A DNA stretch of 64,000 nt from Theocolax elegans (lineage: Eukaryota > Arthropoda > Insecta > Hymenoptera > Cerocephalidae), in the NCBI GenBank assembly GCA_026168455.1, contig CM047425.1, forward strand, positions 20,352,648 through 20,416,647. The letters are read 5' to 3'. The notes under the pieces are model-generated. The model ran no database searches. It was not told the DNA's origin and worked only from the letters and a program-made list of their open reading frames with translations. Both the position numbers and the translations under genes were made by a program. Positions 5,661-55,822 of this stretch are shown here, in pieces. Position 1 is the stretch's first letter, and every line of letters begins with the position of its first letter.

Positions 5661-6082
5661 TGCGACATATATGTATATCAACATTTTCTTACTATACATG
5701 AATGTGGTTTATATTAAGAAAGGATTATTGTAGTTAGGGCATATAGGGATTATCAATCTGAGCTTTACACACCTGTTAGAAAAATTGTTAAATTTTATTG
5801 ATATTTATTGTCAAAATTGGTAAACAAGCTTTATATAGTTTGATTATTAACAATTCTTTTTACGCTCAATTTATATTTTTTACTACATATTTATTTTACA
5901 AGTTTATGTACTAACGGACAAAGATAATTAAATATATTAATTGTTCCTTTTTACAGATTTAAGGAGCATGTTAAGTACAGACAGAACGAGGCGCATTATT
6001 CTCTAGCCCAAATGGAATGCCTATTTCAAAGTAGTTGCAAATCAAGCAAAGTTTTGGTGGTTTGTTTATAAAATCTGTGGGA

Positions 6083-8946
<2,864 letters not shown>

Positions 8947-16275: not shown

Positions 16276-18871
16276 ATTTTTTACTTATATTCTATTGTAC
16301 ATAACTTAGTATTTTACAGAATAATTTTATGAGGTAAGAATATGATTTTAATTGCTATTAAATCTCTTTCATAAAAATATTCAATAATAAATATATCTAG
16401 TGACTTCATGTTACGTAATATAAAATGAAATGATTTTTGGCAAAAGTAATGTCAATTTTGTAATAAATCAAAAAAACTAAATAATACATTATTAAAGTAG
16501 AAAACCAATGAATTTATTCTAGCAAAGTAACATACTACAATTTACTTTGTTCAAACCAAAATTCATCATAATTAACTTGATAAAGAATAAATACAGAAAA
16601 ATACGTATTGTTAACAAACGTAAAGACTTCATGAATCAATAATTCGTCTATTTTATAAGATTACCTAAATATATATTATAATATATATTTACTAATTGAA
16701 CTCACAAGTACGTAAATCTGTACAACTATTTACATTAATTTTATTATATTGATAGTACATTTTCATATTTAATTAATATTAAATAATAAAAAATATTAAA
16801 ATTGTTTCATCTTTCATCTATAGAATATTAAATTATTTCTTGTATATGAATTTTTATTTAAATTAAATAAACAAAATTTTAAATTGAAAAGGTATGGACG
16901 AAGTAAAAAAACCTGATTAACAAATCGCATGGAGTTTTATTATTTTTTTTCATCTTATTTCGTTACAAAGTACATAATATACACAATTTAATCTTATCAC
17001 ACATCTCAGCCCTTTCGCGAATATTCACATTTAACGAGCGCATAATATTCTATATAAAATAAATTTTGTAGTTTGTAAAATTTGATTACTCGTTTAAAAT
17101 AAAACCAACGCATTTAATGACAAGTAAATGAATCAACTTTCCATGATTACTACAATTTAATTTATTATCTTATGGACCTGAAATAGAATTAGTAATAATT
17201 ACGTATATAGGTATAAAATTTATCAATGATACAAAGTTTATTATTTAAAAAAAATCATAAAATATTATCTTTTCTGTAATTACACTTCTACTGAAATTTT
17301 GAATGTTTCATATTTATCTGTCAAATAAAATAATCGTTACCAACAAAGTATTTCTGCGCGATGTATCTTTACGCACTACTCACAACTTTTTCATTTTGCA
17401 ACAAAAAATTTATATAATATGTACAGTCACGCACAATAAAAATAGGAAAAAAATAGATGTCCAGCACGCACGAATTTCGCAGACTAATAATTTCACCCGG
17501 AACTCGATATCGAGAATTTCTTATTAATATATCCATGGTTACTATAAAAAATTTGTAATTGAAACATCCTCGTGTATGAGTCTTGGGCTGTTAACTTTCA
17601 TCTAGTTTAACCATTCTCTCCCACTGTACAGTATTTATACAGCTGATGCACAAAAAAGTGAAAAAATGAACAATTTGTCACTAGCACGCGACGGTAGCAT
17701 CTCACGCGAATTAAACATCAACATTATCATATTCTGTTAATATTACAAGTTGTGGAAAAATTAGCGAATGATGCGCGGAAAAGTCGTATATCACGTAGTT
17801 GGGCGGTTTGTGTGAATTCTTATTGTTCTTTATTTTAATTCTTAGAGAATTCACTGCTTCACTAGGTATGAACGCGTCTTTTGATGCATATTACAATTGA
17901 TTATAAAATATAATCTCAACGTCAGTATCGCATTTTATTTTCAATCCTTCTTCGAGATTTATTTTTATGATGATGGCAGCTAAGTGAATAACGAGTAATG
18001 AATATTTACTCATTCAATTTAGGCAGATAGTTCATAAATATTAGCAGAGATATATTTCCAATTGTTTGCAATGTTGGATGGACTAAATTTCTTCTTATAT
18101 GAATTAATTTTTGCGGTTAAAGAATAATAGATCAAAGTATTAATTTATCATGAAAGATAAAGTAATTGCTGCTATTTTTAATTAGTGTAAAATTGTTACC
18201 AAATTTACAAAAAATGTCCAGCGATAACCTTTTACGAATATCAGCAAAATCACTAAGTATTTTTCTACGTAGAAAAATGTACAATTAATGTAATATTTTA
18301 TTTTAAAAACACTAGCAATCGTTCACACTCTTCAATCTACTATTAAAACGCATTCAAAAATTATCACAACTGTATAACAACCAACATACAAGCATTTTCC
18401 ATTCACACAATTATACTGACGATTATTTTTTTTTTGCAATTCTGTAAACTTTCTTTTCGCAACTTTTTTGTAGTCATCATTTCAACAAGTTATATCTTGG
18501 ACACAAATCTAGTGATTTCGATGATTTCAATTTTATTGACAATAAAATCAAATGGAAGATTAAACTACCATTTTATTATCACTAGACCGCGACATAGTGC
18601 TCAAATTAAACTTCTTATTTCACATTAGATAAAAAAGACTATAAAAAAAGAGATTTCGTTGCTAATGCATACGCACGCATATCTCAGTAATATTTCTACA
18701 AACTTTTCAGAACTCGTCATTAATGCTTCGTCGTTGATTTCAATTTTCATTTTAGTGATAATCAAATGTTGAAAAATTATTTTTTACTCGTTTTACAAAA
18801 GCTGATGATTGCGATAAAAGTTACGCTTTGTCTGTTTTTGTTTTCGTCGTAAGTTCTTACGCGCTTTTAAT
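16276..18871. other. Convergent intergenic region and PPP4R1 3' UTR
   Basis: AT-rich DNA between the ends of two convergent genes. No coding sequence is seen. The part nearest 18871 should be PPP4R1 3' UTR on the minus strand. It contains a minus-strand TGTGAT K-box at 18363-18368, complementary to the miR-2/13 seed. Confidence 0.45.
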
Positions 18872-21800
18872 TTAATAGAATGTGTCGCTTTCCACTTTGC
18901 TTGCAAAAATGCGAACGTCTCTATCGCAGTCCTCTTGCATAACTTTCAGCTTTTCTTGTACGTCGCTTAATAATTCTGCATCGAGATCACCTGGGACACA
19001 ATAAACAAATTAATGTTTGTGAAGATTATTAAATATTCATAATAAACACATGTATTCAAAACATTATACGTACTCATCTCAACGACGTCCCTCGCAAGTG
19101 TTCTAGCGACAACCAACCTTACGTTAGGCACTTTATCGGTGGAGAGTTCGAGAAGGTAGGGCAGTAACTCCTTTGAGAAGATCTCTGTACTGATAACGCG
19201 TTTGGATACAAGTTCCGAGCAAACAAGAGCATAAGTTTGTCTGATTATCCACCTTTCAGATGCACGAGTTATTAGCATCTCTCTTATCTCCTGGATCATT
19301 GCTATCGCAATCGGGTCATTTTCGAGGTTTATTAAATACGATATCGTTTCGGCCACCTATAAAAAGGAAAATAATAACAACTTTATCTTTAACGTACAAA
19401 AAACTATTACATGAATTTTTCATATATGTTAAAAAATTTAATTAATAAAAGAGAGAAAAAAATACAAACTTACAGCGCTCAAAGCTCCCTGTCGCACAGC
19501 AGCAACCCTGTCTCGTATAAGGTGCAGCAACAAGGGTACTACGTATTGTGCTACATCAAAACATTCATAAAGATGTATAATCAAGGCTAACTGCTTGACG
19601 AGTTCTTCTCTTAGCCTCCAATTCCAATTACTATCGGTGACGAGAAAGTCACTGAGCTTTGGCAAGTATTGCATGCGATCTTGTGGACTTAGCACCTTTA
19701 AAAATGTAGAAAAATTCTTCAGAGCTCCTATTCTTACTTCGTCGAGGTCTTTAATAAAACCATTGAAAATTGGTACGAGATCACGTGCTGTGTATTCTTT
19801 TTCAATGATTATGGCAATTTCATGGATTCCAGAGGCTAAGGTACTCCGCACCTTCCACGCTACTGCGGTTGAAAGTCGATGATATGCGTCCTAAAAGTAT
19901 ATAAAATTATTATTTTTCAAAAATAAATTAAAAAATGATTTTATTGATCTTAAAAACATGACAATTGTTTTGTAATCTATTTTAAAAAGAAAGTAGTTCA
20001 AAATCATTTATTATATAGGTAATTATACAATAAGTCGGTGATTAATTATTTTTTTTAATTAATTTATTTAGTTTTCACTTTATACTGTAATTATATAAGT
20101 TTGAGACAAATATACAATAAAAATAAATTTGTTTTATTGAAAATTGCCATTTTATGTTAAATGTGATTTTGTATAAATTTACCTTTAGTCGATGCCAATT
20201 ATTTTTGCCTAAAGTTAGAACTACAGCAGGGAAACTATAAGCGCAATGATAGTCGAGATCCGTACCGATATCATAACAGTCGGGTTGGAGGAAAGGAATC
20301 GAGACAAAATGTTCAATCAAAACTAACGGAACAGTATCCTCTTCTTGTTGATCATCGTCTGAATTAATCATGTTTGATAGAGATGAGAGAGTTGACTGCC
20401 TAAGGTTTGACAGATTAGAGGAGCCTTGATCCAGTGAAGAATCAGATACACCAATAGTATCATTGAAGGTATTATCATTGAAGGTATTGTAAGAATATTC
20501 AGTCAACGTTACCGACGTATCTATTTCAGTTGAATTCGGGCTTCGTGTAAACTTAGGAAAGTAAAAAAATAAAACATCAATATTAAGAACTAAGTAAAAA
20601 CAGTCAAGAATATTAAATAAAAATGAACAAATTTCAAAACATCTAACGCTTTTAAATGTGATTCGAATTATCATGCATCTAAACCGTTTCCCTTATACTA
20701 TTTGTATCAATATTATCAATACTTACATATAATTCTTTACTCCCATAATCGTGCATTAATCTTCTTTTGCCTTTGTCTTCATTCTCCTCGTCATCGTTAT
20801 CCTCATCTTCGTTTTCTTCATCCTCATTCTCTTCATCCTCATTTTCTTCATCGTCATCGTTCAGTTTTTCGCATACATTTCGGTCGTAAATTTTGATCCT
20901 GAATCTATTATCGAGGCCTTCAATATCTTTTTTGTCACGCTTAAATTTATTCTGTTGATCGTTAGAATGATTATTCTCATTATCATCAAATTCCTCATTT
21001 TGCTGTTCAGTCGCATTTTCAGTGTTTTTGTTGCAATCCTCAAACTGTTCATTTTGATTTTCAATTATTGTATTTTTATTATCTAAAATAATAAATAAAG
21101 GTAATCGGGTAAAACTTAATATTCTAAAAAATTTCTGGATATGAAAATACTTATAACTAAATAGTATTTATTGACGCATCTCATACGGCTATGTGATGTA
21201 AGTTTAATTTTTTTTTATATTGTAGCCACAACATTCGTTTATGCGGCGTCATTTAAATATCAAAAAATATTTTTGTTTGTTGAAAGAAAAAATGTTCTTA
21301 CTTGTGTCATCATTCGGCTTTTGATCTGCTTCGCTTTTATGGTCCTTCTCTTCTGGATATTGTAGCTCGTTGTTCGTTTCGTTGGTGTTCGTCCTTTCAT
21401 TATCATTAATGATGGACTCAACCAGCTTTGGATCCAAAGGCATATCCGGAGGATCATAATAGTATTGAAATAGATTAAATTTCGCATGTACTTTCGTCTT
21501 GCTAATTAAACATTTGTTTAGTATTACCTGAAATAAGATTTAAAACAAAATTAGTATTTTAAATAAGAAAAAAATATATAAATTTTTACTCAATATGTCT
21601 GAATTTACAAATAAACAAGAATCTTGAAATAATATTCAATTATTTAATATTTTCATGTAAATAAATGTGTAAATGCAGATAATTAATTTATTAATATATA
21701 AATATATGTATAATTTATTATAATTTATAGATTAAATTATACAGAATAATAAAAATTAAAATGCTATTTTTATAATTGCAATTTAGTATTTATTTTTTTT

Positions 21801-24800
21801 TTTTATTCTTGATTTTGTGCTCTCTTTTTCCTGGCACTTCCTACCGTTTATCCCCTGGGGGACTTTAACGGTGTTCACCTACCACCTATGTGTGGGTGCT
21901 TTATCCCTCCCTTAAAAACCCCACCATCTCGCATTCGCCCGGGGTTATGCCCGTGGATGAGGGAAACCTGTGAAGCAGGGAAAACCTCATCCGAGATGGC
22001 CGGTGTATTCGAAACATTCTTTTTGGGTGTCAAAGTCACATTGCGTAGGCCTTGACACCGAAACCGAATGTTTCACACCTCCCGCTCACGTTGTGAAGTG
22101 TGAAAAAACACCTAACCCGCCACGAAAGCCAAACCCATCCAAGTGCGAACCGCACTCAGTGCTGCTTAACTTCCGTGACCGGCCGAGATGCGTCTCCGCC
22201 ACTCCGCCACCGTGTCGGTAATTGCAATTTAGTATTAAACAAGTATAATATTAATGATATAGAACTTACTTTTTTATACTTTCGTTTGCTTTGCTATAAA
22301 AAAATAAAAATGATATTAATTTATAAAATATTTTATATATATTAGAATAAAGAATACTCATCAATACTAACTTTCCAAATATTAGGATGGTTAACATCAA
22401 AATCAGGCGGATGCGTTGTGCATCTGAGGTTTTGATTAAGTATATCGCTAACTTTGGCAACAGGAACTCTGCAATATATAATTTATAACATATTATCAGA
22501 ATATTCTACGAAATGTTATATAGGTACATCATAATAGTATTTATACTAAGGGAGGGAGTCATACTATATTTCAACCTCCTTTAACCTCCTTCAACCTACT
22601 TTATCGCCATAAAATATAACATAAAAATTAACGTAAGTAAAAATCAGCATTATTTAATGCAATACTAATAGTTCATTTACCTTCTTTTATAATAATCCAC
22701 CAGTCACCTCAGTTTAGAACAAAAATATTCATTATTTTTAATAATCCAATAAATTCTATATCTAAAACTTGGCACATGGATGGATTATTTATAAACGAAG
22801 GTCAATAAACTCTCTAAATGTTATAAACTAGTTTTTAATGTTCTTCAAATTATAGTGATATTTGATATCGATATCATACGAAAGACGAAAATTGACTAAA
22901 GCACCCCATTCATTGGTACTTTCTAAATGATTTTTATAAAAAAATTGAAACTTATATTTTACTTTATTGTCAAATAATTATAATATTATAGGTACTACAC
23001 GCAAAGAATTTTCTAATAAAAATTACTATACCACGATAAACCTGGGACATATGAGCTATTTCAGCAAAAGACAACATAAAAGTTGTAATATTTGTAAGGA
23101 AATCGTAATAATTTTTAACGTGCTATCATGATAATTTTTAAGTCACAAATCAAATATAATGTCTATACGAAAATTCTCTCCGCGTATCAAAGTCGTAGGC
23201 ATTGTCAAAACTTTTATTACATTACATAATATTCAACACATAAATAATATTATTTTCTCTCACAATAATGAAGACATAAACTTACATATTAAATCTTGGC
23301 CAACCGTGCTCGTTTTCATAGACAAGTACAAGTTCGCCCTTTTGATCGCATATAAGCTCGTGAAACTGCTTGGCAAAAGTCGAGATGAAGGGTCCGAGAA
23401 TCTCGTAGGCCGAACGTTTCACCCAGCGTGAATCGTCACGTAGATGGTTGATAAGAAGCTTCGAAAGAAGGTTGCGACGCAACGACAATGGCACGCACCG
23501 TGCCACCGACATCATCACGTCCACCGATGTCTTCCGCACGCTCCACGCAACATCCTGGCACAAATTCGAATACGCCTGAAGCTATAATAAACATGAAAGA
23601 TCAATTTGTTGCTCTAATCGCTACTAAAAATGCTTTATTTATATAACGATATGCTTTAATTATTTAATCCATTTAATAGAGTAAAATATTACTTGTGATT
23701 TTTTGCCGCATTTTTAAATAAACCAGATATGAGATCAAATGTAACAAAGCTCTACTATATTTTTATTTTGATTAAGTGTTTAATTATATATTGTAATATT
23801 CGACAACTCTAATAATATATTTATTTAAATAATAATTTTTAATTGATTAAATATATATCTACTGTTCTATTATCACATATTGTTAAATAATTAGAGTTCC
23901 TTATTATAGATTCGTACTTTATCCATGATTGTCTATCTAAATATTTAAATCACTCATTTAGGTTACATTAAGTAATTTATATTTAAGAAATTACGTATGT
24001 CTCAATTCTAATTTATATTTTATAGCATATTTTTTTCCTGGTAAAAGCATTTATAGTAAATAATTATGAGGAAACATACCTTTCAACTCAAAAATTATAT
24101 TCAAATTATTGAATTTAAAATCTAAAAAAAATCGTACGGACAGTTTGAAACTAAGAGCGTGACGAATTGTCATTTAAAAAAAAATAATTTCTGTATTTAT
24201 AATTAAATAAATAAATTTTTGGTTAGTAATTTTGAGTAAAGAAAATTTTGTATAAGATATTATATATAGCAACTTAAACATTTGAAAATATTTGAGTATA
24301 TTGTTAAATGCGTGCAAAAGAGCCTGACCAAAAGGATTTTTTCTAAAAATAAATTTTTTTATTTATAAAAAAAATATGAAGAATGCCTATTATTATTTCA
24401 TGAGTCTAACATCCTTTTAATAGGTAAACAAGATCCTATATTTTAAATTTGTTTAGGAATAGTTAGTTGTGCTAGTAAGAAAATTTCTTAACAAAATAAT
24501 AAAAATATATATAAAAATAACTTACTAGTTTTGTGTAAATAGTTTCCTTTGACATTATCGTACAGAACTCGCCCATAATAGCCGCGCAAACTCTCCTGAC
24601 GAACCATCCGTTGCTGTTACACAGTTCGAGAAATCGATCAAGAAACAATTTCTCAGTAAGTTCATCTCCTATGTATGGATTGACCTTTGTCATGAGCTGC
24701 AGATAGAATAAGAATTTTCGTAAGATTGATGTTTTGAAAACATAATGTTAATATTGGCACACATATAACAAACGTTTTGGTCCATAAAAACAATTTTATT

Positions 24801-27800
24801 TTACGACACTGTACGATACATAACGTTAAATCGTATGTAGAATAAAAAACATTTTGTATGCAAGAAGAAAGACGCTTAGCTACATTTGATAATAAAACTA
24901 TACATTACAAGTTATGTAAATATTAATACCTATCTGTTAGTAATTCTTCAATTGATGATTTTTTTCTAACTGTTTCGCACATCAAAGCTGGCTGTGATAT
25001 GCGTTAAATTACACCATATCACAACCACTCTGACGGGCGGAACAATCGAATTTTTTGGAACCATGCCTAGCATTGTTTTATAGCATTTAAAATTTTTTAA
25101 AAAGGTTTAGCTTAAGTTTTGAAGAAAGTGTAGTGAAATTTGAAAGCACCAAATTTAGAGTAATATATCCTAAATATATAAGTACATGGCAGAAAAAATA
25201 GTTCTTTGGATACACGATTGCAGTCTACTCCATGGAATGTCTATAATTAATTTTAAATTAGTCAAAATTAACTTGAAGCCGTGTAAGCCATATTCAAAAA
25301 TGCGGAGTAAGATTGCATGCTAATTGAAATGAAACTTAAATTATTTTAAAAGTCTTAATATTCACAAAAGTATTAATTAATGAATTGAAAATTACTATAA
25401 GAAGACGACAATGAGAATCTATTTAAAGATTCAATCAAGAAATCATTGACAAGGTACCACATCGAAGTAGTATAATGAAATTCATGAATCATCTAGCTCA
25501 AAATAATCAATGATAACAAATTATCGATGAGAATGAATATAAAAAAAAATATATAATAAAAACTAGATAATCAGTGTATACACAAGATCAATTGTAAAAG
25601 ATCTCGAGTCAGTAGAAAAATACTTTTGTTGGTTGTTGTACCCATATGAATACGCAGACTTGGACGAATGACGAGTCGGAGGGTAAATCGTCCCCCAGAA
25701 TGGTGTGTGTCCCACGATCTCAATTCCGCGAAATCGACGGGCAAGTCCTTCTCTCGCGCACGCACACGCCGAAAGGAAGGTACTTAGTCGGCCCCGCAGA
25801 ATCCGGACGGCCCTGAAGCAGGCACCGGTCTCTCTCTTTTCTCTTTCTTTCTCTCTCGCCCCCTCCCTATCCTCCTCTATCGCTTCTCTCAGAAGAGGGG
25901 TTTTTAAGCGAGTGGAGGGAGAGACAGAGAGAGGGAGGATACTAAGCTACGTAAGAGGCGGGAACCGATGCTTTTATATTTTTCTATTTTTCTATTTTAA
26001 TTCTTTGTTCGTGAAATGTTGTTATACAATTCACATATGTGAAAAGTTTGAACATTCATTTATCAACTTACTCTTCTGTTTATTTGTTTAGTATTTTGAG
26101 AGTAATCTAAACTATTTATTTTGTATTATATAATTATTTAAATCATTTATTTGATACATTGATATAACGCTCGAAATAAATTTAATTTTTTTTATATGAA
26201 AATCATTGTAAAAAGTTAATATTAAACATAAACAGTATTATCATTACTATTTTTATATAAACATATTTAACTAAAAATATTATTACATTCACCTAATGAT
26301 ATATAGTATATTTAATGCAAAAAAAAATATAGAAGCACTAACAATAAGTAGATTATTCAATAATTATCACAAATTTCTAAATGTATATTTCATCTACATC
26401 TTTAAAATATTTACACAGAAAATATGTATTTCCACGTGCAAAATTTTTTAAATATGTTTTTTACTTATAGACTTGCGACTTTGCATAATGATGTATTATT
26501 CAATGATCTAGTACTTCTGTATTTGGGTTTTCCATTAAATACTATATATCGTTAAATAAATGTAATAAACAACAATTTTTGCTCGGTCGGTATACAAATC
26601 TTCATAAACGAATATATTATAGAGTGAACTGCGTTTTATTTTTCTTTAATATTCTAAAATATTTTCTTTTTTTATAAAAATGATTAATTAATTACTAATC
26701 TTATAATTAATATTAACATAATTACAATTTGATACACGATTAATACAAAAAAGTCATTTATTTTTGAAAATTAAATTTGAAGACAACAATGTCTCTTCTT
26801 TAGCAGTTGATTTTAAGATACGTCGAGATTGAAGATACTCACCGCTCAACAAAGCTGGCTGTGATATGAGCTGGAAAAATCGACATACAACAGCCACTTT
26901 GTGAGCGACGCGATCTGCACTAAAAAAAGTTGTTCGAAGTCTAATCTCTTGAATCGAAGAGCAAGTGCCACGTTGAGGAATCGGAAGCGTCGATCCAACT
27001 CGTCAAAAATGGCTGTGATATGAATATCTGAAGAACAACACGCCACAACCAATTTGACGATCGGATCGTGCTCTTTAATTTTGAATTTTTTTCTTCTTAG
27101 ATGATGTATTTATACTTGACTTTCAAATGTTGTCTTCTTATACATGTCGTCAAAATTAGCTATTAGATTAATAATATCTTTATAATTCAACATATTAATA
27201 TTTTAATACATATTTACATAATTTACATTTACAAAATGTTATTTACATAATCAAGTAATACAAAATTTCACTATAAATTGTAGTTTATTATACAGCTTTA
27301 CAAAATAGCTGTATTTACACGGAGAGAAAAGTTTTGTAAAAATTATCATCATGATCTGGATACAAATTATATTACCAAGATAGTAACATTATTGTATATT
27401 TATGGATAATAATTACGTAAACAATCGAACATCAGCATTTGACCCTGAGTATTGTGACAATTTGGATTTGTTTTTTCTCTCCGTGTACGTGTTGTGCTAA
27501 TTAAAATAAAACGAATATTCGTTCCTATTAAATGTTCTAAAAATATATTACATTCAATAGGAAACGATTACGAAGAGAAAAATCCTATAGAAATCGCAAG
27601 TAAAAAAGAATAAATAAAAAATCTTGGGATGTTGAAAGTTGGTCAAAAACAAAGAGCCGGAATGAAGCGTCGATCGATTCTACGGGCCAAGCTCATCAAA
27701 ATGGCTGTGATATGGAAACTCGAAACATTCCACAACCAATTTGATGTATCGGACCGCAAAAGTGCTGTTTCCTCGGTACCTCTCTCTCTTTCTCTCTCTC

Positions 27801-30800
27801 GCTGCCTCCGTACCCCTCCCTTCACCCTTCGGTCGTAGTCGTCGACTGCAGATGTTATCAGACACAATTTTGCTCATCAAAGCTGGCTGTGATAGTCGAA
27901 AACCCTATGACAAACCAGCTTTGATGGTAAAAGCATGCCACCGTTCTCCTAGTGCAGTGCCTACATATGTACACTACGCTATATTGTTAACTCCCACGTT
28001 AGATTTCTTTTTAGGACGAACTACACGACGAACGCCGCATGAAAGACAAGGTAGTGAGACGCGGATGCGAGGTAAACATCTCACTACCCATGTCTTTCAA
28101 TCGGAATTTCGCTCTTTCAATGATATTTCATTCTATTCGATCTTCTGATTCTTCTTACGAGATTATACAAGTTCTTCTGGTATCTCAATAATTATTTAGA
28201 AATCTTCAGCTGTGCTTAACTGTTATATTCGACATTTATATGACAATCGTAAATAGATGAATACTAATTTCGCAATTACATTACGCCATCACTGCTAAAT
28301 AAATATGAAAATCATTTTCGTGAAATATGTTTAATAAAATAATTTAATGTTTTACGTCCTACACATTTACTTTGGAAAATGAAACTAATTTTCATATTTA
28401 TTTGAACATTAACAAAGATATTTTCTAAATCGCTTTTAGTACACTAATTTATGAAAAAAATGTTAAATGATGCGCCGATAACTAATACATTTTATTTAGT
28501 AAAAAAAACTAAATAGATTTCGATTAATTTCGTGTACAATGTTCGAAATAATAAGGAAGCGCATCTTTGAATCGTCACGGCAACAAGTGGAAAGTAAAAA
28601 AGGTGAGCTACTCACGGTGAGCGCCAAGGTCTGGAATTCCATGCAATTGTCGCGGGAGAGCTCGACGATGACACTACAGACGTTCTGAATTTGCTGCTCG
28701 TCCAGCAATCCCCGTTCGAGCAGCACCCTGAGAGCCGTTTGTGCATCTTGTCGCACCTAACATAAAAAAACATTTCGATTCAATTTTATAATCGTTAAAT
28801 GTACACGGGATTTCTCAAATAATAATTTACAGTATTTGTATTATTTGAATTTCGTTGTAATTCGCGTGAATCTTTGGAATTATGCAAATATAAAATTTCT
28901 TAAGTAAATTTATATACTTTCACAAAACGATAAATAAACAAATTAGTTAAGCGTTTAATTTATAAAATTTTAAATAATCAATATAGAACAATTACCTGAT
29001 TTTCTGGGTCACGTAGGTAGAAGAGGATAGCTTCGAGGAAGTGCGTCACTAAATTTTGGTCGAAGAGAAGAGGCGATTCTTGGCATATGAGTATCAAATG
29101 TGGAAAACACTCGACCAGCGATGATTTAACTGTACTCTCTACAAAAAAAATTATTTAATTTAATAATATTCGGAAGTAAAAGTACATTTTCAAAATCCAT
29201 AAATATGACTAATAATTTATCTTTTGTAAAATGAGGTAATAATTAATAATCTACACATCGTTTTTACGACAATGAAACTATTTCGTAGTAAACGACGCAT
29301 ACAAATATAAATTATCGTGTATGAATTAAATGCGTAAAGATAAATAAAATTTTCTATAATTGATAAAATACAATTGGTGAAAAATGTTAAAAAAAAACAT
29401 TATCCTCGGTTAAACGGTCTAAGTGTAATATATGCTACATGAATCATTAATTTTGTTTCTGCTACGCTCTCACAGAAATGTCACTTGTAAAATTTATTAA
29501 AACACCATTACACACGTGTAATAATAAATTATTCAACAGCTTAGAGTATTAATTGCATGACCGTCAAAATAAACATAAAAGCTTGAAAAAAATGTCAATG
29601 TACTTAAAATATAAATTAAAAATTATTCGATACATTATACGAAATTGTTTTTATTTGAATTAATATGAATAAATGTTAAAAATCTCACATCAGTTATTAA
29701 CAATAGCGAATAAAACTTTTGGGCGCACTCGAACACTATAGATCTTGTACCATTAGTTAGAGTTGTGTGTTCACATATATATGTATACACGTATACACTA
29801 CATATATATATATACACACACACACGCGCGCGCGCAGAATCGTATATGATTTGGCGGGAAAAACCGAAGGGCGCGCGGCGCGGAGCGGTTCGGAAAAACG
29901 ATGCGTACAGGAGGGACGCGTGGGTGCGACTGACTGGGCCCAGAGGCTTTTCTGAGACTCGCGCGTGCCACGACGACTTTTCCTTTGGCGGGAAGACGGT
30001 GACGCCTCTCTCGCTCTCGAGGGAGAGAGTCGACACGACAGCCGGTCGCGCTCGAAAAAGGGCAAGGATCTTTCTCTCTCTTTCTTTTTCTCCCTCTATT
30101 CTAAAGCTTTTCCGGGACGTTACAGCCTGCGTGAAAGCGCGTTTTTCCAACTGCCGATGCAGCTACGCTCTTCGTCTTCCTCCTTTTTTTTTTCTTTTTC
30201 GATCTCGATGGTTATTTTTACCTTTTGCCATTAACGTTTCTTTTACGTGACGTTTTTTGAGGTGAGGTGCCTTAAATGTACTCAATCTTAAGAAAACTTA
30301 ATCTTTCTGACTTGGGCTTTTTTTTCTTAATTAGCTTCCATTTTTGGAAGTCTTTAGTACGTGTGCAACGAAACTTTATTTTTTTGGAGTTCAACTCAAC
30401 TGAACTACGTGTTATTTATACAAATATTTGTTTATGTTACTTACATCGATAATTATTCATTTATATTTTAATGTTTTAAGTGTAAATTAAAAGAATTAAT
30501 ACATCATTATGATATGTTTATATTCGCATTTGTGTGTTCTATATTTAACAAAAGCTTTAAATTATATATCACTGTTAATTCTACTTTACTTTACTGTCAA
30601 CAATTGACTGAAAATGATTAATTTATTCATCGAGTTAAAATACGCTTCTCAAAATTAGTATTATAAATAAATATAAAAATAACAGATAAAATAGATTTAG
30701 CAATTTATAATCATTAAACAATTTATCGTGGATTGAATAAAACCGAATAAGCTGATAGAAAAGGTTGTAGCGTAAGCCTACAGCTAATTTTTACTCTCAA

Positions 30801-33800
30801 AACCGTCGCTTCGACGCAATTCGTGCGTGAAGAGGTTAAACGGAAAAGCCCGCCGCCTTAGGATAGGGGAGGTAGAAAATTGAGTGAGAAGGAGAGAAAG
30901 AGAGACAGAGACGAAGTATATGTGAGCGAGGGAGAGAGAGAAGAGGGCACGCGTCTGGCACGCGCCTCGGCTCGGAAATACATTAGCTGCGGGGCGGCGG
31001 ACCCCGAAAAAGCGTATGCACGTGCAAGAGGGAGAGGAAGATGGCTCGCGCGAGCCCAGCCGGTCGAGGGGCGCAAAGGAAAAAAGGTGTATGTGCCCAG
31101 CTGGCTGCTACTGCTGCTGCTGCCCTTTTTCTTCCCTGCGACTTCTCGATCTTAAAAGGAAAAGCTGATTTAGAAAGTATTTTTTTTTTCAAACCAACGC
31201 TCAAATTTTCCCTCCAAAAGTTTAACCTCGTGAAAAATTGGACTATTATAATTAGTTAAATTAAAGATAAAATTAGATGTTGTAAATTTTCAATTACTAT
31301 ATTACATTGCTGTTTAGCACCTGGTAAATAATAAATAATTAAAATTCTTAAAAGAGAGCTTCTCAAAATTAGTATTATAAATAAATATAAAAATAACAGA
31401 TAAAATAGATTTAGCAATTTCTACACTGAGAAAAATGAAATAATAAAAATTACTATATTTTATAGTAATGGTGGGACATACTTCGACTATCGTAATTTTT
31501 GCTATATTTTGTAGTAATTTTTGTTATAATTTGTAGTAATTTTTGTTATAATTTTTGTAAAAATACTTTGTACATAGGAAAAATTGCTATAAAATATAGC
31601 AAAAATTACGATAGTCGAAGTATGTCCCACCATTACTATAAAATATAGTAATTTTTATTATTTCATTTTTCTCAGTGTAATCATTAGACAATTTATCGAG
31701 GATTGAATAAAACCGAATAAGCTGATAGAAAAGGTTGTAGCGTAAGCCTACAGCTAATTTTACTCTCAAAACCGTCGCTTCGACGCAATTCGTGCGTGAA
31801 GAGGTTAAACGGAAAAGCCCGCCGCCTTAGGATAGGGGAGGTAGAAAAATTGAGTGAGAAGGAGAGAAAGAGAGACAGAGAAGAAGTATAGTGAGCGAGG
31901 GAGAGAGAGAAGAGGCACGCGTCCTGGCACGCGCCTCGGCTCGGAAATACATTAGCTGCGGCGGCGGCGGACCCCGAAAAAGCGTATGCACGTGCAAGAG
32001 GGAGAGGAAGATGGCTCGCGCGAGCCCAGCCGTCGAGGGGCGCAAAGGAAAAAAAGGTGTATGTGCCCAGCTGGCTGCTACTGCTGCTGCTGCCCTTTTC
32101 TTTCCTGCGACTTCTCGATCTTAAAAGGAAAAGCTGATTTAGAACGTATTTTTTTTCAAACCAACGCTCAAATTTTCCCTCCAAAAGTTTAAACTCGTGA
32201 AAAATTGGACTATTTTAATGTACACGTTTCGTTATAATTAGTTAAATTAAAGATAAAATTAGATGTTGTAAATTTTCAATTACTATATTACATTGCTGTT
32301 TAGCACCTGGTAAATAATAAATAATTAAAATTCTTAAAAGAGAGATTGTGATAATTTATTTAAAAAATTAAAGCAATTTAAAGATTAACGATTGTGCTAG
32401 TGTGTGTTTATACTTTAATTGAGTTCTTATGCAAGTAGGAAATAACAAATTTGAATACTGAATAATATATAAATCCCTAAAGATTCTTCAAACGTAGAAT
32501 CGTCAATTCGTATACGTAAACTTGACGAATCGAAAAATTAGAGTACAGAGGGAGTATAAAAGTAAGTTCACCTTAATTCAAACGATCAAGGAATCGAAAT
32601 ACCGTGATCGATCCGACAGTTTGTGTATTTTTGGTGTGCATCCCGGATGATGCGGCAGCTTCGAACCATCGATCACGACTCGGCGTTATCTCTTCCTCCT
32701 TAGCTCTGGTGCAATGCGCGTCTCCTATCTAAAAATACGCGTACGCGTGTGTACATACGAAGAGCCGCACTCAAGTGACCCCAAGAGGGAAGCCCTTTTT
32801 TCTGAACGCAAGGGTCCGAATGGATACCGGATGCACGAGTGATTCCCTCGTCGAATGTTTTTTTTTATGATCGACCGACATTTTTCCTTTATATTATATT
32901 CTTAAGATCAAAAGCAGGTCCAACTTTAAACTGCCTTAGTCCGACTTAATTCCTCATATAACTATTATCTCTCAATTTGAAATAGACATTCTACAATTTA
33001 AGTAAACTGATAACCTGTAAACCAAATGCGTCAAACTAAATAGTCGAAATCGTTTCACTTTTACTGTTACATTTCCGTTTTTAATAAATAACACTTTGTC
33101 GACAGAGTCTAGGTAAAATTTAAAATATTTAACCCAGGCAATACGAATCTATAAAGGCATTGAATTTATCAAGTATATAGTTAATTAAATCATTTAAATT
33201 ATATATTTCAAATAATAATGAACATTTTGTTAGGGGTAAAATTTGTATTCAAGTGGCGAATAACCTTAAGAAATATTAGACATTTCTGAATGTTTTTAGA
33301 TTAAAAATAATTTTAAATTATACTTTAAAAATCGTTTTAACGTCTAGTAGGGGAACAAAAATAAAGTAAAGTAACCTAACTTTATTAGGTACACTAGTAT
33401 TAGGCGACACGAAACAATCATCGAATCGTCAAGTCAACGTATCTCTCAAGAATCTAAAGAAAGAAAGGAAAGAAAAATCGGATGAAGATAGAAAAAAACA
33501 CATAGTTGCAGCGTCGACGCCTCGAAACGATATATAAGTCACCCCTCCGACTCGACGTATCCAAAAATATAACGGCACGTGCTTGAAAAATTTAACTTCT
33601 CCCCATACCGATAATGTGACACACAACATAACTGAGCCTTATATGGAAATTCGGGGGCATAAATATGTTACCACTCATTTTCAAGACTTGTTTTCACCCC
33701 ATTGATTTCTAAACGCAGGTTAGAAAACTCACTTTTACGATAATTATCTGCGATTAATCATTTCTTAATAGCTCTTCGTTAGAAAGAATATCTGTAACTA

Positions 33801-41100: not shown

Positions 41101-42376
41101 ATCATGCAAAAAGCTTATTACGGAATAATCAATTGACATTCTGTATTGATAAAAATAAAGTAAATAAGCGTTAAAACGTAATTAAATTTAAAAGAAACAG
41201 AAAACCACAGGAACTAAATATCAGGAAAATAATTTATACAATTCATTATGTTGGCTGCTACAAAGATAAATTTATAAGCATATTTACAATTTAATTTTTA
41301 AGGCCGTGTCTACTTGCACCCCAACCACATAATGAAGAAACATACTATACCATAATAATCCATAAATATAAAAATCCAATAATTTGAAAAGTGATATATA
41401 TTTCTTAATAAATTATATAAATGTGTTATATTAAGTTTGTCGTTTTCCCTATGGATTATTATATAAATAAATATATATATGCAATGCTTTGAAACACTAA
41501 AAATTGCAATTAAACCTTAGATCGAAAATTTAAGAAAGTGTAAAAATAAAAGCTAAATTTTACTTGCGTGTAAATATTATACCAGCAATATAGATAGAAA
41601 TAAGGGAAAATAAGCAGCCGCTTTCATGTTCAATAGTATAGTTTTTCATTGAACGGCCATTTTGTTCCATGCTGTCAAAATTTATACACATACTTTCTCT
41701 TCTTTTTACGATATTTTCACATTTAGACATGTAAGACTTTATACTTTTACTTCTGTACTTTTGTAGTGCTAGTAGGATTTGGACGATTCAGTTACATTTC
41801 CAATCCATTTTCACCACATTTGCTCGGTTTTTTTTCAATATTTACAAGCTGAGCTTTCTTCCGTTTAGTGTAACAGGTGCAAGTAAAAGCGAGTGCAGAA
41901 ATAAAAAATGTGCAATTAACTACACAACTGTGAATATGTAATTATAAATAAATTTTTTCGTTAAGATATTCTTTTTACACTTGTGAAGTGGCATAAATAC
42001 ATAAGTTAATATACAAAGATCCGTCTTTTTATAGAGTTTCTACGAAAAAGAGAGTACTAAGTGAACAGTAATTGGGAATCAGTGATACAAGATTTACTAT
42101 AAAACTGATAATTTCAGAGATAATGTAATACTATCCAAATTATTGTGATGATTTATTATTAATGTAAAAAATGTATCAAACAATTTCAAGTAATTTATCG
42201 TAATAATTTCAAGCTATTTTAATACTAAGTCTGAGACACTAAATAATTATCAACTCGACTCACCGCTATCGTGCATTATGTAATCAATTGGTTCAGAAAT
42301 TTCTTCGATTCTCACATCAAGTTTCAATTTGACGGCATTCTGAAACATGTTTATTAGCAGCTTGCCCACCATCTGT
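18872..42376 (-). CDS. PPP4R1: Protein phosphatase 4 regulatory subunit 1 (N-terminus not found)
   Basis: Twelve minus-strand coding exons, all phase-compatible: 42264-42376, 28996-29138, 28616-28756, 24526-24696, 23286-23581, 22372-22468, 21302-21527, 20727-21082, 20183-20551, 19474-19890, 19074-19356, 18872-18990 (stop 18872-18874). They give about 910 aa; human PPP4R1 has 950. HEAT repeats fill the N-terminal part (RQMVGKLLINMF, ending VKRSAYEILGPFISTFAKQF) and the C-terminal part (LVPIFNGFIKDLDEVRIG, NWRLREELVKQL, VPNVRLVVARTLARD). Between them is an unstructured Asn/Glu/Asp-rich linker with a DEENEDEENEDEEN run. The protein is a scaffold that binds the PP4 catalytic subunit and targets it to substrates. 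The exon at 42264 begins inside the codon for the R of RQMV, so upstream coding of some tens of residues is missing. The 13.1-kb intron 29139-42263 is very long, and intron 24697-28615 hosts six sense miRNA hairpins. Confidence 0.95.
21773..21790. repeat. Target-site duplication, left copy
   Basis: 18-bp direct repeat TAATTGCAATTTAGTATT abutting the A-tail end of the 5S-derived SINE. It is identical to the right copy. Confidence 0.85.
21791..22218 (-). mobile_element. 5S rRNA-derived SINE (SINE3-like) in a PPP4R1 intron
   Basis: A GC-rich 428-bp insert is flanked by an 18-bp direct repeat, TAATTGCAATTTAGTATT, at 21773-21790 and 22219-22236. Its minus-strand 3' end is an A-tail (T run at 21791-21804). 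The minus-strand 5' part, about 22128-22200, contains GGTCACGGAAGTTAAGC and GCACTTGGATGGGT, which match the internal promoter region of 5S rRNA. This is the architecture of SINE3-class elements: 5S-derived pol III head, unrelated body, A-tail, long target-site duplication. The near-identical duplication suggests recent insertion. Its 83-codon open frame is a by-product. Confidence 0.85.
22219..22236. repeat. Target-site duplication, right copy
   Basis: Exact copy of the 18-bp repeat at 21773-21790. It abuts the 5' end of the minus-strand SINE. Confidence 0.85.
22995..23110. mobile_element. Degenerate MITE fragment related to the 31.4-kb element
   Basis: It starts TACACGCAAAGAATTTTC and runs through AATAAAAATTACTATA and GGGACATA. 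These occur in the same order in the left arm of the MITE at 31424-31677. The inverted right end is not recognisable, so this is read as an old, decayed copy. The right boundary is approximate. Confidence 0.45.
24970..25040 (-). ncRNA. mir-2: miR-2 family hairpin (last of the cluster)
   Basis: The minus-strand 3p arm, 24977-24999, begins TATCACAGCCAGCTTTGATG, the miR-2 mature sequence, and ends in GTGC instead of GAGC. The 5p arm, GTCAGAGTGGTTGTGATATG, at 25014-25034 pairs with it to form a stem. It lies 1.8 kb downstream of the next cluster member, in the same PPP4R1 intron and strand. The miR-2 seed targets K-box motifs in 3' UTRs. Confidence 0.9.
25690..25960. promoter_or_regulatory. CpG- and CT-rich island inside the miRNA-hosting intron
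   Basis: A sharp GC-rich block with CpG-dense sequence (25700-25830) followed by CT-rich and GA-rich runs, in otherwise AT-rich intron. It sits between two miR-2 hairpins. It could be an enhancer or an internal promoter for the last hairpin. No direct evidence of function is visible. Confidence 0.3.
26838..26912 (-). ncRNA. mir-2: miR-2 family hairpin (second miR-2)
   Basis: The minus-strand 3p arm at 26844-26866 begins TATCACAGCCAGCTTTGTTG. It differs from canonical miR-2 by an A-to-T change outside the seed. The complementary 5p arm, CTCACAAAGTGGCTGTTG, lies at 26884-26906. It sits about 130 bp downstream of the miR-13b hairpin in transcript order. Confidence 0.92.
26990..27066 (-). ncRNA. 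mir-13b: miR-13b hairpin
   Basis: The minus-strand 3p arm at 26997-27020 begins TATCACAGCCATTTTTGACG, the miR-13b type. It has five T in the central run, where the Drosophila form as I recall it has four. The star arm, CGTCAAATTGGTTGTGGCG, lies around 27041-27060. The family represses transcripts carrying K-boxes. Confidence 0.92.
27318..27485. mobile_element. 168-bp MITE inside the miR-2/13 cluster
   Basis: Terminal inverted repeats CACGGAGAGAAAA / TTTTCTCTCCGTG flank an AT-rich core, and a TA dinucleotide lies on each side (27316-27317, 27486-27487). TA duplications and short size fit a Tc1/mariner-type MITE. The ends resemble the CACTGAGAAAA ends of the 31.4- and 47.3-kb elements. It lies between the miR-13a and miR-13b hairpins and interrupts neither. 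Confidence 0.75.
27684..27755 (-). ncRNA. mir-13a: miR-13a hairpin
   Basis: The minus-strand 3p arm at 27691-27712 begins TATCACAGCCATTTTGATG, the miR-13a sequence. The 5p arm, TACATCAAATTGGTTGTGG, lies at 27726-27748 and pairs with it. A CT-rich spacer (27780-27835) separates it from the upstream miR-2 hairpin. Confidence 0.94.
27868..27933 (-). ncRNA. mir-2: miR-2 hairpin (first miR-2, canonical mature)
   Basis: The minus-strand 3p arm at 27872-27894 matches canonical miR-2 throughout (TATCACAGCCAGCTTTGATG, then AGC). The 5p arm, CCATCAAAGCTGGTTTGTC, at 27905-27927 forms the stem. It is the first miR-2 after miR-71 in transcript order. Confidence 0.95.
28030..28110 (-). ncRNA. mir-71: miR-71 hairpin
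   Basis: The minus-strand 5p arm at 28077-28099 reads TGAAAGACATGGGTAGTGAG and continues ATG, which is mature miR-71. The 3p arm at 28038-28059 reads TCTCACTACCTTGTCTTTC. The two arms are nearly complementary across a short loop. miR-71 heads the miR-2 cluster in many protostomes and is lost in drosophilids. Confidence 0.96.
29790..30235. promoter_or_regulatory. CpG-rich island in the long PPP4R1 intron, 1.7 kb upstream of miR-71
   Basis: AC/CG microsatellite (29814-29837) followed by about 400 bp of GC- and CpG-rich sequence with CT and GAGAG runs, then a T/C tract. Long open frames on both strands (up to 171 codons) are low-complexity and share the same DNA. It is a candidate promoter or enhancer for the intronic miRNA cluster, by position only. 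Confidence 0.3.
30644..31358. repeat. Tandem duplication, copy 1 (about 715 bp)
   Basis: It begins GCTTCTCAAAATTAGTAT and ends AAAATTCTTAAAAGAGA. The same start and end recur directly after it in copy 2. The core (30830-31160) is GC-rich and GAGA-rich. It contains the uninterrupted TTTATAATCATT site that a MITE occupies in copy 2. Confidence 0.9.
31359..32344. repeat. Tandem duplication, copy 2 (with MITE insertion)
   Basis: Colinear with copy 1 apart from a 254-bp MITE, scattered one-base indels and substitutions, and one extra stretch near 32218-32232 absent from copy 1. The open frames in both copies differ by frameshifts, which argues against coding. Confidence 0.9.
31424..31677. mobile_element. 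254-bp foldback MITE with about 87-bp perfect TIRs
   Basis: Both ends read CACTGAGAAAAATGAAATAA inward. The arms 31424-31510 and 31591-31677 are perfect inverted repeats. TA flanks each side (31422-31423, 31678-31679). The paralogous copy 1 shows the empty site with a single TA, proving insertion with TA duplication. There is no transposase frame. The type fits a non-autonomous Tc1/mariner element. Confidence 0.92.
34563..34601. repeat. (GT)n microsatellite
   Basis: Almost pure GT run of about 39 bp with a single GC interruption near its end. Its translation accounts for the VCVCVC and HTHTHT open frames on the two strands. Confidence 0.9.
37501..37820. repeat. Putative foldback repeat with GGGAGTAA motifs
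   Basis: GGGAGTAA near 37503 and GGGAGTAAAA near 37770 are mirrored by TACTCCC near 37530, 37550 and 37810. This gives an imperfect inverted arrangement around an AT-rich core. It may be a decayed MITE. Boundaries and target duplication could not be fixed. Confidence 0.4.
38136..38176. repeat. (CT)n tract
   Basis: CT dinucleotide tract of about 41 bp with minor interruptions, in a CpG-rich island of the PPP4R1 intron. It reads GAGAGA on the gene strand. Confidence 0.85.
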
Positions 42377-51200: not shown

Positions 51201-53112
51201 GAGCTAGACTATAGATTATATATGAACGTTTAACGTTAATAAAAAATATTAGAGGTGAAATAAATTGTCGATCAGCTTTTCCAGAATGATCATCGATATT
51301 TTCATTCACTTATATTACAGTTGGTTATATTTAATTCCGTTTTTCCGTAATCAGTCGTCGAAGAAAACTCAAGATCTCATGCCTTGTCGTAAACTTTACA
51401 AATGTGGGTTCACCGAAACTTTTCAATGAGTTTTATTAATTAAATGAATCAAAGACGAAGCACATTCTTTTCTTTCAATTTGCGCGGATTATTTGATAAA
51501 TTTTTTCCATTTCTGATCGTTAATTACATTTCTAATAATATTTTAAGCGATTGACTATGTGATAATGTAAATGTATAGTTAATTTTAAATTTAATTTTAG
51601 TAAAATTATATAAAAATGTTGATACTTTAGGAGAAAGCGATTTTGACATTGCTACTCAAGTTTATTCATAAAATTTAATTAAAAGTACAGTTTATGTGGT
51701 CGAAACTTTGTTACTTATATAATATTAAGTAATATTTTAAACAAAAAAACCATGCCCAGTTTATATAGTTAAGTATAAGTTTATTGTTTGAGGTTGTTTA
51801 CTGAGAAAATAAATTGGCATATATTTACGCATATAAAATTCACTATGAAAACACGGTGAAACCATTTTATCAGCAACCTAAAAATTACCGTGATAATACG
51901 GTCAAAATCTTAACAATTTTATTAGAAAATTCTCTTTGCGTAGGTTTAAATTGTGCAATTATTATTTTGAATAGATCCACATCTATAATATCAGGGAACA
52001 AATACATTTAAATTGTTTAAAAATATTTCTTCTTCCGAATAATGAATTGTTTTGCTAACAATAAAAGAGTTGCACGTATGTTAAATAAATGCAAATTCAT
52101 TTTCACGCACGAATTGTATATTAATATTAAGTTAATATAAATAAATAAAGTTAATATGGAGGAAATAATGAAACCACAATCTATATTATCTGTGAAGTAT
52201 CGATTAGTTTCGAATAAACATCAGCGGAAGCATTTGGCGGCGCCTGCACATACATAACCGAGACTAGATTTAGGGAAAGGTAGTGTGTGTATACTTATGT
52301 ATGTGTACCGGTGTTACACCGGGTTTTTCTCGCTCACCAGGTGTGCAAAACGTAGGCTGCTCGCACAAATCCGTGCGTTCCATTAATCTGGCCTAATGCC
52401 CAACGTCACGGCTCTCACCCTCTTTCTCTATATTTCTCTCTCTATCTCTCTCGTGGATAATGCTTATACGAGACGACTATACAGGGGAACGCGTAAAGGT
52501 GCATCCCTCGCGCACGCGCTCGGGCTATACACCGATTGCCACGGTGCATTTGAAGGTTAAGCCTGTTTCTCAATCATTTCAAAGTTTACACGAGTGATTT
52601 TCAAGGTCACGTTTATCCCGGAAGACATCGGTAAGGGCCATTCTTTCCATATGAACCTTCATTCTTCATCGACTTTTCGAGATGCGTTCTATTCCTCTAT
52701 ATTTACATGGCGAATTGTAAATTTAATCTTTCGGTTTCGGTTTACACGGCAGATGCTAATATAGGTTCAATATTATATATTGACGAATTTCGTACATTTG
52801 TTACGCCTCGACTAATATTTATTATTTAATGTGAAAACTGAAGGATGTACTTATATACGTGCTTAATCTCTGTAAGTCTTATGACAAAAAAAATAACACT
52901 TTGAACCGTTAAATTATAAAATTGGATAATAAGTCGTACAGAACATGAAATTAATTTTTAATTGTAATACACTATTAAGCGTAGCGTACTCTAATTTTAT
53001 TTCCAAGATAGTAAGTTATAATAGATTACTAAACTGTACAAACAATTAATTTAGCATGATTCACTACTCTATACTCTAGAATTTCGAAAAAAGCGAAAGA
53101 ATTATCCTAATT
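48285..53112. other. Non-coding DNA with two GC-rich islands
   Basis: No gene recognised. A GC/CpG-rich island spans about 49890-50360, with both-strand low-complexity frames. A second spans about 52220-52640 and includes a CT-rich run. The remainder is AT-rich. CACTGAGAGAATGAAATAG at 48321 resembles a MITE end without a matching partner. Confidence 0.45.
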
Positions 53113-53160
53113 AAGTCAAAATAAAGCCACTCTACTGTAAGAGTGGCTTTATTTTCACTT
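53113..53160. repeat. Perfect short-loop hairpin
   Basis: AAAATAAAGCCACTCT (53118-53133) and its exact complement (53140-53155) are separated by six bases. After one C-C mismatch, AAGT/ACTT extends the stem by four pairs. The loop is too short for a typical pre-miRNA. It could form a cruciform or be a remnant foldback element. Confidence 0.8.
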
Positions 53161-55822
53161 GATTTGGGTGATTTTCCATTCGAAGCGAGTCATTGGCTCT
53201 CTTTTCAAATTTAGCAGGTTAAAACTATTTGACCACTTTATCCAATATAGATGATAAAATATTTTATAATGGATAAATTAAATGAATAGTTTTTGAATGT
53301 GGAAAATTGTGAAGAAATGTAAATAAGTTTAACAAAAAATGTTGCGAATTAATGTTGTAAAGTAAAATGGGCACTATGAAAGGTAAACGACAACGAGTTA
53401 AAGAGTTTCATAAACTATTTCTAGAAAGCATAGGCACGTGCGCGCGAGCCTCGTAAACCTAAAGACGAGCGGTCAGGTGTATCTCATAAACGAGCTTTTC
53501 TCCATTAGAAGGTAGAAGAAGGACGGTGAAAAACCTTTTTCCGTATAAGCAATAAACCTTCGGTAGCTTGCGAGTAGTGGGCGCCAGCCATTGTTATACG
53601 GTACAAAACGCGGCAAGATTGTAAACTTCGGTATGACTGCGCCTAGTCATCCCTCACCGCGACTAATCCCGCTCCACCTAATCTGCCTCCGACACAGACA
53701 TTGCGAAAATTCACCATTCGCTCGTCACGTTTTCCAATGTTTTCACTCTCGCGTGAGGGGGTAGTATAGAACAAACTTTCAACGAGCTGATGGGTTATTT
53801 ACAATCGGGTTATTGGGGGATTTTCGCGAAAATTTTCCGAAACCATGCTTTGTAAGTGTTGTAAATTATCGGAGGATCATTCGACTGGGGGGGTGGAGTC
53901 GCGAGGACGGATTTTGTTTTTACTACGTTATAAATTGCTATACGTGGGAGGACTTTTTTTACTTTCAAAATTTATAGCTTACGAAAATGAAGATTTTTTG
54001 GGGGAAAGAAGAATAAGTACTTGTGATTTAAACGCGGAAAACATTAGTTAAGCAGTCGTTTGTAATCTTGTTTTACGATCGGATTCACAAACGATGTACT
54101 CCGAAAGGAGGAGGGAGGGCGCCGCAGGTCAACTGCAGTGGCTGATTTACGAATTATTGCCGTCTAATCTTCTCGAGAATTATGAGAAATTTTTCTATTA
54201 TCCAGTCACGTAGTCGCTTTACCTACCGCCTCAAATTAAGAAGGTCGCGTAGACATAAACTTTTCATTCGGCTATTATAACAATAACATTTTGCCAAGGA
54301 CAATATGAATAGAAAGTGAAATGGTTGTACATACTTTCTCTCGTTGTGAAAAATTAACAATATATATTTTTACAGCTCTTCTATGACCGCTACTTCTTAG
54401 ACTGCTACTCGCTAATTCTCGGACCATAAATTCTCTATATGAATTACTATTTTTATAAGCTTTCGAAAATGACTACATTGTTTATTGTACTCTAATCAAC
54501 ATACATAAAAAGTAAAAACGTAACTTTAAGATAAAGTTCAGTACATTTTATTTGAATTGGTAAACAATTTTATTGGAGTAAAAAACGTATTTCAAACCAT
54601 TTGATTTACATATTGTTTTTAATTTATTATAAGCATCGCATCAAATACTGCATTATAAAATGATAATAATTGCATTATCGATGTAATTCAAAAAGAATAT
54701 TGTAATACGGCAATACTGTTCAAATAATAGCATCTTATCCATTCAACCGATTTATTGGTGATGCTTATACAAGATGATCGATTAATTGTTCGATATGAAA
54801 ATGAACGTTACACATATGGAAAATTTGTTTGAAAGAATGTTGAAAATAATAGAGAAAAATGCGCGTATCCGAGATCTAGTCGAATAGCAAGGCTGCTGCA
54901 AATTTCTCTTTCCATCTTTCCCATACGGGCCATAAAAGGGACAGAAGCGGAGAGGAAGGAATGTTGTTGTTGTGCCGGGGAGGCTGCCGCTCTCGGGAAC
55001 GGGAGCGCGGGAGAAGAGAGAGACGCCCGAGCGCCAAAGAGAAGGGGGAGGAGGTGGCCGGCCGCAAGGGCGGGAGGAGGGGAGAGAGATAGAGGGTAGG
55101 GGAGGGAACGAAGTTAATGCACCGCGGGGGAATGCGATGCTGCGCGCCACGCTGGCCCAACAGCAATGCGGCGAGGTGCGCATTCTACCGTGCCCGGATA
55201 ACTATAATGCGACTATAAAGTCGAGTCGATGACTAGAGAAAGAGAGGAAGACAAGGAGCCGATCGTGCCGGGAGCAACAGGAGAAATTAAAACGACCGAT
55301 CTTGCTTGACACTTTTCAATGTGACTCTTTTACTCAAGTAAATAACTCTTCAATCCGACGTTCTGATAAATGCTTTATACATTTCATTTACTATGATTAT
55401 GATAATTTTTTCTTTTTTCTGCATAACGAACAGTTTTATGCATACGTCCTTGCAAAAATCATGTTTTTGTAACTAATAAATATTTATTAGTTACCTAGAA
55501 AAATTTATGTAAATTGTATTGAAATTTTTTTTGTAATCAAATAGAAAAATAATTATATGTTATTATGTGTTACTAACAAGACAGATTCTTTTAAGAGGTG
55601 CGTACATTATGTCGATTAATTTTTTACAATTATTTGATGTATAGAGTAGCGTACCAGAGCGCTTTATTTATGGGAAATTCCTATTAGATAGATTGATCGA
55701 TGAATTTTTTTTTCGTAAAAATACTGTCAAAATAAAAAATAAAAGGGTGTCACAAAAATCATGAGCATACACGAAGATAAATTTACGAGAAAAATGATAA
55801 GAAATTGTATTAAAAATTGGTA
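53161..55822. other. Non-coding DNA with GC-rich islands
   Basis: Islands at about 53430-53960 and 54880-55270, the latter GA- and CpG-rich with a both-strand Arg/Pro-rich translation. No gene is supported. Confidence 0.45.

Follow-up and report, generated by a model that had tools for sequence, protein, structure and literature searches.

In the honey bee, mir-71, mir-2 and mir-13a are clustered in intron 3 of GB15727, a serine/threonine phosphatase gene (Weaver 2007, PMC2394756), the genes named being mir-2 (three), mir-13a and mir-71 (one each); we infer that GB15727 is PPP4R1. A 2014 study of the oyster (PMC4138081) reports six mir-2 genes in a PPP4R1 intron, with a largest host correlation of r 0.93, places C. 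elegans mir-2 in ppfr-1, the PPP4R1 orthologue, and suggests that the arrangement is maybe ancestral. For C. elegans itself, mir-71 and mir-2 were described in 2010 (PMC2835999) as occupying different ppfr-1 introns, each with its own promoter, and with expression patterns that overlap only partly with that of the host. A paper on the rootworm gives a set of one mir-71, one mir-2, two mir-13 and two mir-2 in four arthropods, whilst in Drosophila, by a published statement, mir-71 has been lost. Here we describe a 64-kb stretch of the hymenopteran Theocolax elegans (contig CM047425.1, positions 20,352,648 to 20,416,647; hereafter ‘the window’, within which all coordinates are given), in which, we conclude with high confidence, a PPP4R1 intron houses, in sense orientation, the miR-71/miR-2/miR-13 cluster that is conserved in protostomes.

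The original prediction was of six minus-strand hairpins, reading miR-71, miR-2, miR-13a, miR-13b, miR-2, miR-2 in transcript order. A covariance-model scan of the window with Rfam, at the gathering thresholds of 50 bits for mir-71 (RF00832) and 45.5 bits for mir-2 (RF00047), returned five matches only, all on the minus strand; with the sub-threshold first mir-2, the features are:

28033 to 28105, minus strand: mir-71 hairpin; RF00832, 71.5 bits, cut-off 50
28099-28076 and 28059-28038, minus strand: miR-71-5p and miR-71 3p, both arms identical to the cloned Bombyx miR-71 and miR-71*
27868 to 27931, minus strand: mir-2 hairpin no. 1, mature 3p at about 27894-27872; RF00047, 41.3 bits, below 45.5
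27687 to 27751, minus strand: mir-13a hairpin, mature 3p at about 27712-27690; RF00047, 60.4 bits
26994 to 27064, minus strand: mir-13b hairpin, mature 3p 27020-26997; RF00047, 65.3 bits
26840 to 26908, minus strand: mir-2 hairpin no. 2, mature 3p at about 26866-26844; RF00047, 52.9 bits
24973 to 25040, minus strand: mir-2 hairpin no. 3, mature 3p at about 24999-24977; RF00047, 63.2 bits

Four of the five mir-2 family hairpins thus pass the RF00047 cut-off, the exception being 27931-27868, and each of the six hairpins scores higher on the minus strand than on the plus (71.5 against 49.7, 41.3 against 25.4, 60.4 against 30.5, 65.3 against 25.7, 52.9 against 29.6 and 63.2 against 37.8 bits). Folding gave z-scores, in transcript order, of -7.3, -3.5, -5.8, -5.4, -5.0 and -9.4 (200 shuffles each); none of the shuffles folded as well for five of the stretches, and one did so for mir-2 no. 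1. The mir-2/13 core TATCACAGCCA has five exact copies in the window, all on the minus strand and all inside cluster hairpins, and allowing up to one mismatch gives seven matches where 0.56 would be expected. Start-to-start spacings are 174, 180, 687, 156 and 1868 bp. Read by mature sequence, the transcript order is miR-71, miR-2, miR-13a, miR-13b, miR-2, miR-2, so that mir-71 leads a series of mir-2 family hairpins, all on the same strand, and the composition is that of the arthropod set in the rootworm paper; the predicted hairpins, strand and order are borne out by Rfam (five of six above cut-off), by folding and by the mature sequences.

Six published mature sequences, taken from a 2008 Bombyx cloning paper and from the rootworm paper, were compared ungapped with the window. 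Exact matches were found for Bombyx miR-71 (24/24), miR-71* (22/22) and miR-13 (24/24), the last at the hairpin called 13b (3p 27020-26997), and for rootworm miR-71 (22/22). Rootworm miR-13a differs by one mismatch from 27712-27690, in the hairpin called 13a; rootworm miR-13b comes nearest, with two ungapped mismatches, to this same hairpin and not to that called 13b, and our 13b label therefore leans on Bombyx miR-13. The miR-71 22-mer had no exact match in prokaryote and virus contig collections, as expected for these.

The plus strand of mir-71 (28034-28106) itself scores 49.7 bits against the cut-off of 50, which we take as the mirror image of a hairpin that is nearly perfect; because the UGAAAGACA start is kept, a transcript of the antisense strand would carry an identical seed.

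That the cluster lies in sense inside the PPP4R1 intron 24697-28615, as had also been proposed, holds up on splice sites, in-frame exons and the match to Nasonia. The parts of the gene, by splice sites and translation, are:

24697 to 28615, minus strand: host intron of PPP4R1 in the exon model, 3919 bp, GT-AG, phase 0
18872 to 29138, minus strand: 12 downstream PPP4R1 coding exons
29138-28996, 28756-28616, 24696-24526, 23581-23286, 22468-22372 and 22293-22270, minus strand: exons 1-6 of these 12
21527-21302, 21082-20727, 20551-20183, 19890-19474, 19356-19074 and 18990-18872, minus strand: exons 7-12 of these 12
42264 to 42376, minus strand: upstream PPP4R1 exon (QMVGKLLINMFQ...), from tblastn and splice sites joining in frame

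The host intron has the donor GTGAGT and the acceptor CTGCAG and divides the protein between ..LALT and LMTKV.., and all six hairpins (28105-24973) fall within it (28615-24697), on the strand of the gene. Spliced from GT donors to AG acceptors, the 12 exons form a single frame of 879 amino acids to a stop, and the product is similar over its full length to named PPP4R1 proteins: the best match is PPP4R1 of Nasonia vitripennis, with 56% identity over 100% of the query, followed by Copidosoma floridanum (52%) and a Trichogramma (48%), the top three scoring 967, 887 and 823 bits before a drop to 577 (129 matches at E ≤ 0.001, of which the best 120 are listed). Nasonia, Copidosoma and Trichogramma are chalcidoid wasps, and by these matches the window, too, is probably chalcidoid. 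Twenty solved-structure sequences were matched, all of them PP2A entries and nearly all its 65 kDa subunit A (best E 7.6e-28), and Pfam HEAT scores in all three exon-containing frames were 22.7-23.4 against a cut-off of 23.5. The upstream exon at 42376-42264, separated from the set beginning at 29138 by an intron of 13125 bp, was found by tblastn with E-values of 4e-7 for Nasonia and 2e-7 for Copidosoma PPP4R1.

Our conclusion is carried by Rfam and folding together, by three arms identical to cloned Bombyx sequences and by the 12-exon in-frame model of PPP4R1, along with the same composition in four arthropods and the precedents in bee, oyster and C. elegans; hairpins, order, strand, exon model and host identity are all read directly from the window. 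Three points weigh against it. The first mir-2 (27931-27868), at 41.3 bits, lies below the gathering cut-off of 45.5 (E 1e-5 for 4.3 kb searched), and the evidence for this species comes from DNA. In addition, the first PPP4R1 coding exon and the promoter were not found in the window, either by motif or with a 14-column profile of 35 distinct homologue stretches preceding an AG or CG donor junction. The profile scored negative throughout (at most -15.1 above 42378), and the host transcript is therefore seen in part only. It is possible that PPP4R1 starts inside exon 42376-42264; 3 of 120 homologues start with MVGRILVEMFRA.

The microRNA pathway and the role of the K-box are established knowledge, and we propose that Drosha would crop the hairpins out of a nuclear transcript and that Dicer-1 would process them for loading into Argonaute; the products of miR-2/13, which have the seed AUCACAG in common, would then repress mRNAs with K-box sites, whilst miR-71 would act on a separate target set. 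The source might be the PPP4R1 pre-mRNA or a nested transcript started at an internal promoter of the gene; the two might also contribute together. Expression, processing, target repression and promoter use of the cluster are, at this stage, what we infer. The original prediction went on to tie K-box repression to expression of PPP4R1; this we keep as a hypothesis. Sense orientation permits both host-coupled and independent transcription, and the published precedents on coupling are mixed, the oyster correlation speaking for it and the worm reporters against a strict tie. As for direct feedback on PPP4R1, the 1472 bases after its stop hold no 7-mer-m8 site (the site type scanned) for miR-71-5p, miR-71-3p or miR-2/13, which leaves such feedback without support; a single K-box hexamer (18368) and a single miR-71 6-mer (18157) both lie beyond the AATAAA motifs at 18577 and 18537.

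An alternative to which we give only slightly less than an even chance is that a separate promoter, lying within PPP4R1, drives the cluster, so that its expression is largely uncoupled from the host; this is a question of transcription alone and does not touch what the cluster is. Such a promoter might sit in the approximately 510 bp that separate mir-71 from the nearest exon upstream of it, or farther up in the 13-kb intron. Favouring this are the promoters of mir-71 and mir-2 within C. elegans ppfr-1 introns, where small-RNA cloning data for mir-71 back the intronic promoter over that of the host (PMC2835999), and the GC-rich, CpG-rich patches upstream of the cluster (e.g. 29801-30200), albeit that patches of this kind abound in the window. 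Set against it are the oyster, where mir-2 genes in PPP4R1 show that largest correlation of r 0.93 with their host (PMC4138081), and the fact that no such promoter was identified here.

We regard as unlikely the broader reading that shared regulation has kept the cluster in PPP4R1 since the protostome ancestor, and that loss of the host gene in flies led to the loss of mir-71 and the rehousing of mir-2/13. That the linkage is found in worm, oyster and bee, and in the window as well, is in keeping with this reading; the fly part rests on published statements.

More doubtful still is separate transcription of the last mir-2 (25040-24973), apart from the first five hairpins. Its start does lie 1868 bp beyond that of the hairpin before it, where the other spacings are 156-687 bp, and it is preceded by a GC- and GA-rich patch at about 25600-26000 (GC 0.48-0.52); however, GC-rich patches are found throughout the window, the two hairpins in this patch only modestly beat their shuffles (z -2.44 and -2.35), and gaps within the cluster differ among species, exceeding 15 kb in silkworm (rootworm paper). 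These two intron hairpins (25806-25715 and 25945-25855, with 2 and 3 of 200 shuffles as good) are not called microRNAs. Finally, that the hairpins are degenerate or chance structures, and not functional microRNAs, is scarcely credible: one of them is below its Rfam threshold and equalled by a shuffle in 200, but the seeds are intact, the arms paired, the order canonical, and arms are identical to cloned microRNAs of another insect order.

Other features of the window, within PPP4R1 and beyond it, may be recorded here. The 13-kb intron contains a near-tandem duplication (30644-31390 and 31358-32371; 93.6% identity over 706 positions and 100% over a further 63), one copy of which has received a palindromic insert resembling a miniature inverted-repeat transposable element (MITE) at 31424-31677, of about 254 bp, with ends CACTGAG/CTCAGTG and flanked by TA, whilst in the sister copy the corresponding site, at about 30708, is empty; the insert has weaker, partial matches at 47.3-48.3 kb and 24.0 kb. 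A GC-rich element at 21800-22222, also in a PPP4R1 intron, has no Rfam match at the gathering threshold and no second copy in the window; by eye, we take it to resemble a short interspersed nuclear element derived from 5S rRNA. A near-perfect 81-nt hairpin at 53095-53175 (-40.3 kcal/mol, z -10.5, no Rfam match at the gathering threshold) could be either a small MITE or an undescribed microRNA-like hairpin. On the plus strand, frames at 6035-8662 belong to a RING-finger gene (Pfam RING 22.9 against a cut-off of 27) that resembles RSPRY1. Over the window as a whole the CpG observed/expected ratio is 1.47, and numerous short GC-rich patches are scattered over a background that is AT-rich.

Having been published in related form for bee, oyster and worm between 2007 and 2014, the host relationship is not new, and ours is a new species instance; among the matches listed from open-licence literature, we found no report of the arrangement in a chalcidoid. 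A single new instance, taken alone, leaves existing knowledge unchanged. Among the closest comparisons is the honey bee, of the same insect order as the best protein matches of the window, although mir-13b is not in the list of Weaver 2007, PPP4R1 is not named in the part of that paper used here, and the intron number depends on the gene model (PMC2394756). The oyster, like the window, has mir-2 family genes in a PPP4R1 intron; unlike it, it belongs to another phylum and has six mir-2, with mir-71 occurring nowhere in the main text (PMC4138081). In C. elegans, too, both families lie in introns of ppfr-1, the orthologue of PPP4R1, in the direction of the host gene, but these introns are different, there is a single mir-2 and the promoters are separate (PMC2835999), mir-71 and mir-2 being more than 7 kb apart (rootworm paper). 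Drosophila has the same mir-2 family with other hosts, spitz for the mir-2 cluster and CG7033 for a mir-13 (PMC4138081). To this series the window adds a hymenopteran instance, the use of which is comparative: one host gene across distant protostomes makes a good test of whether these microRNAs are retained via shared transcription or by linkage only.
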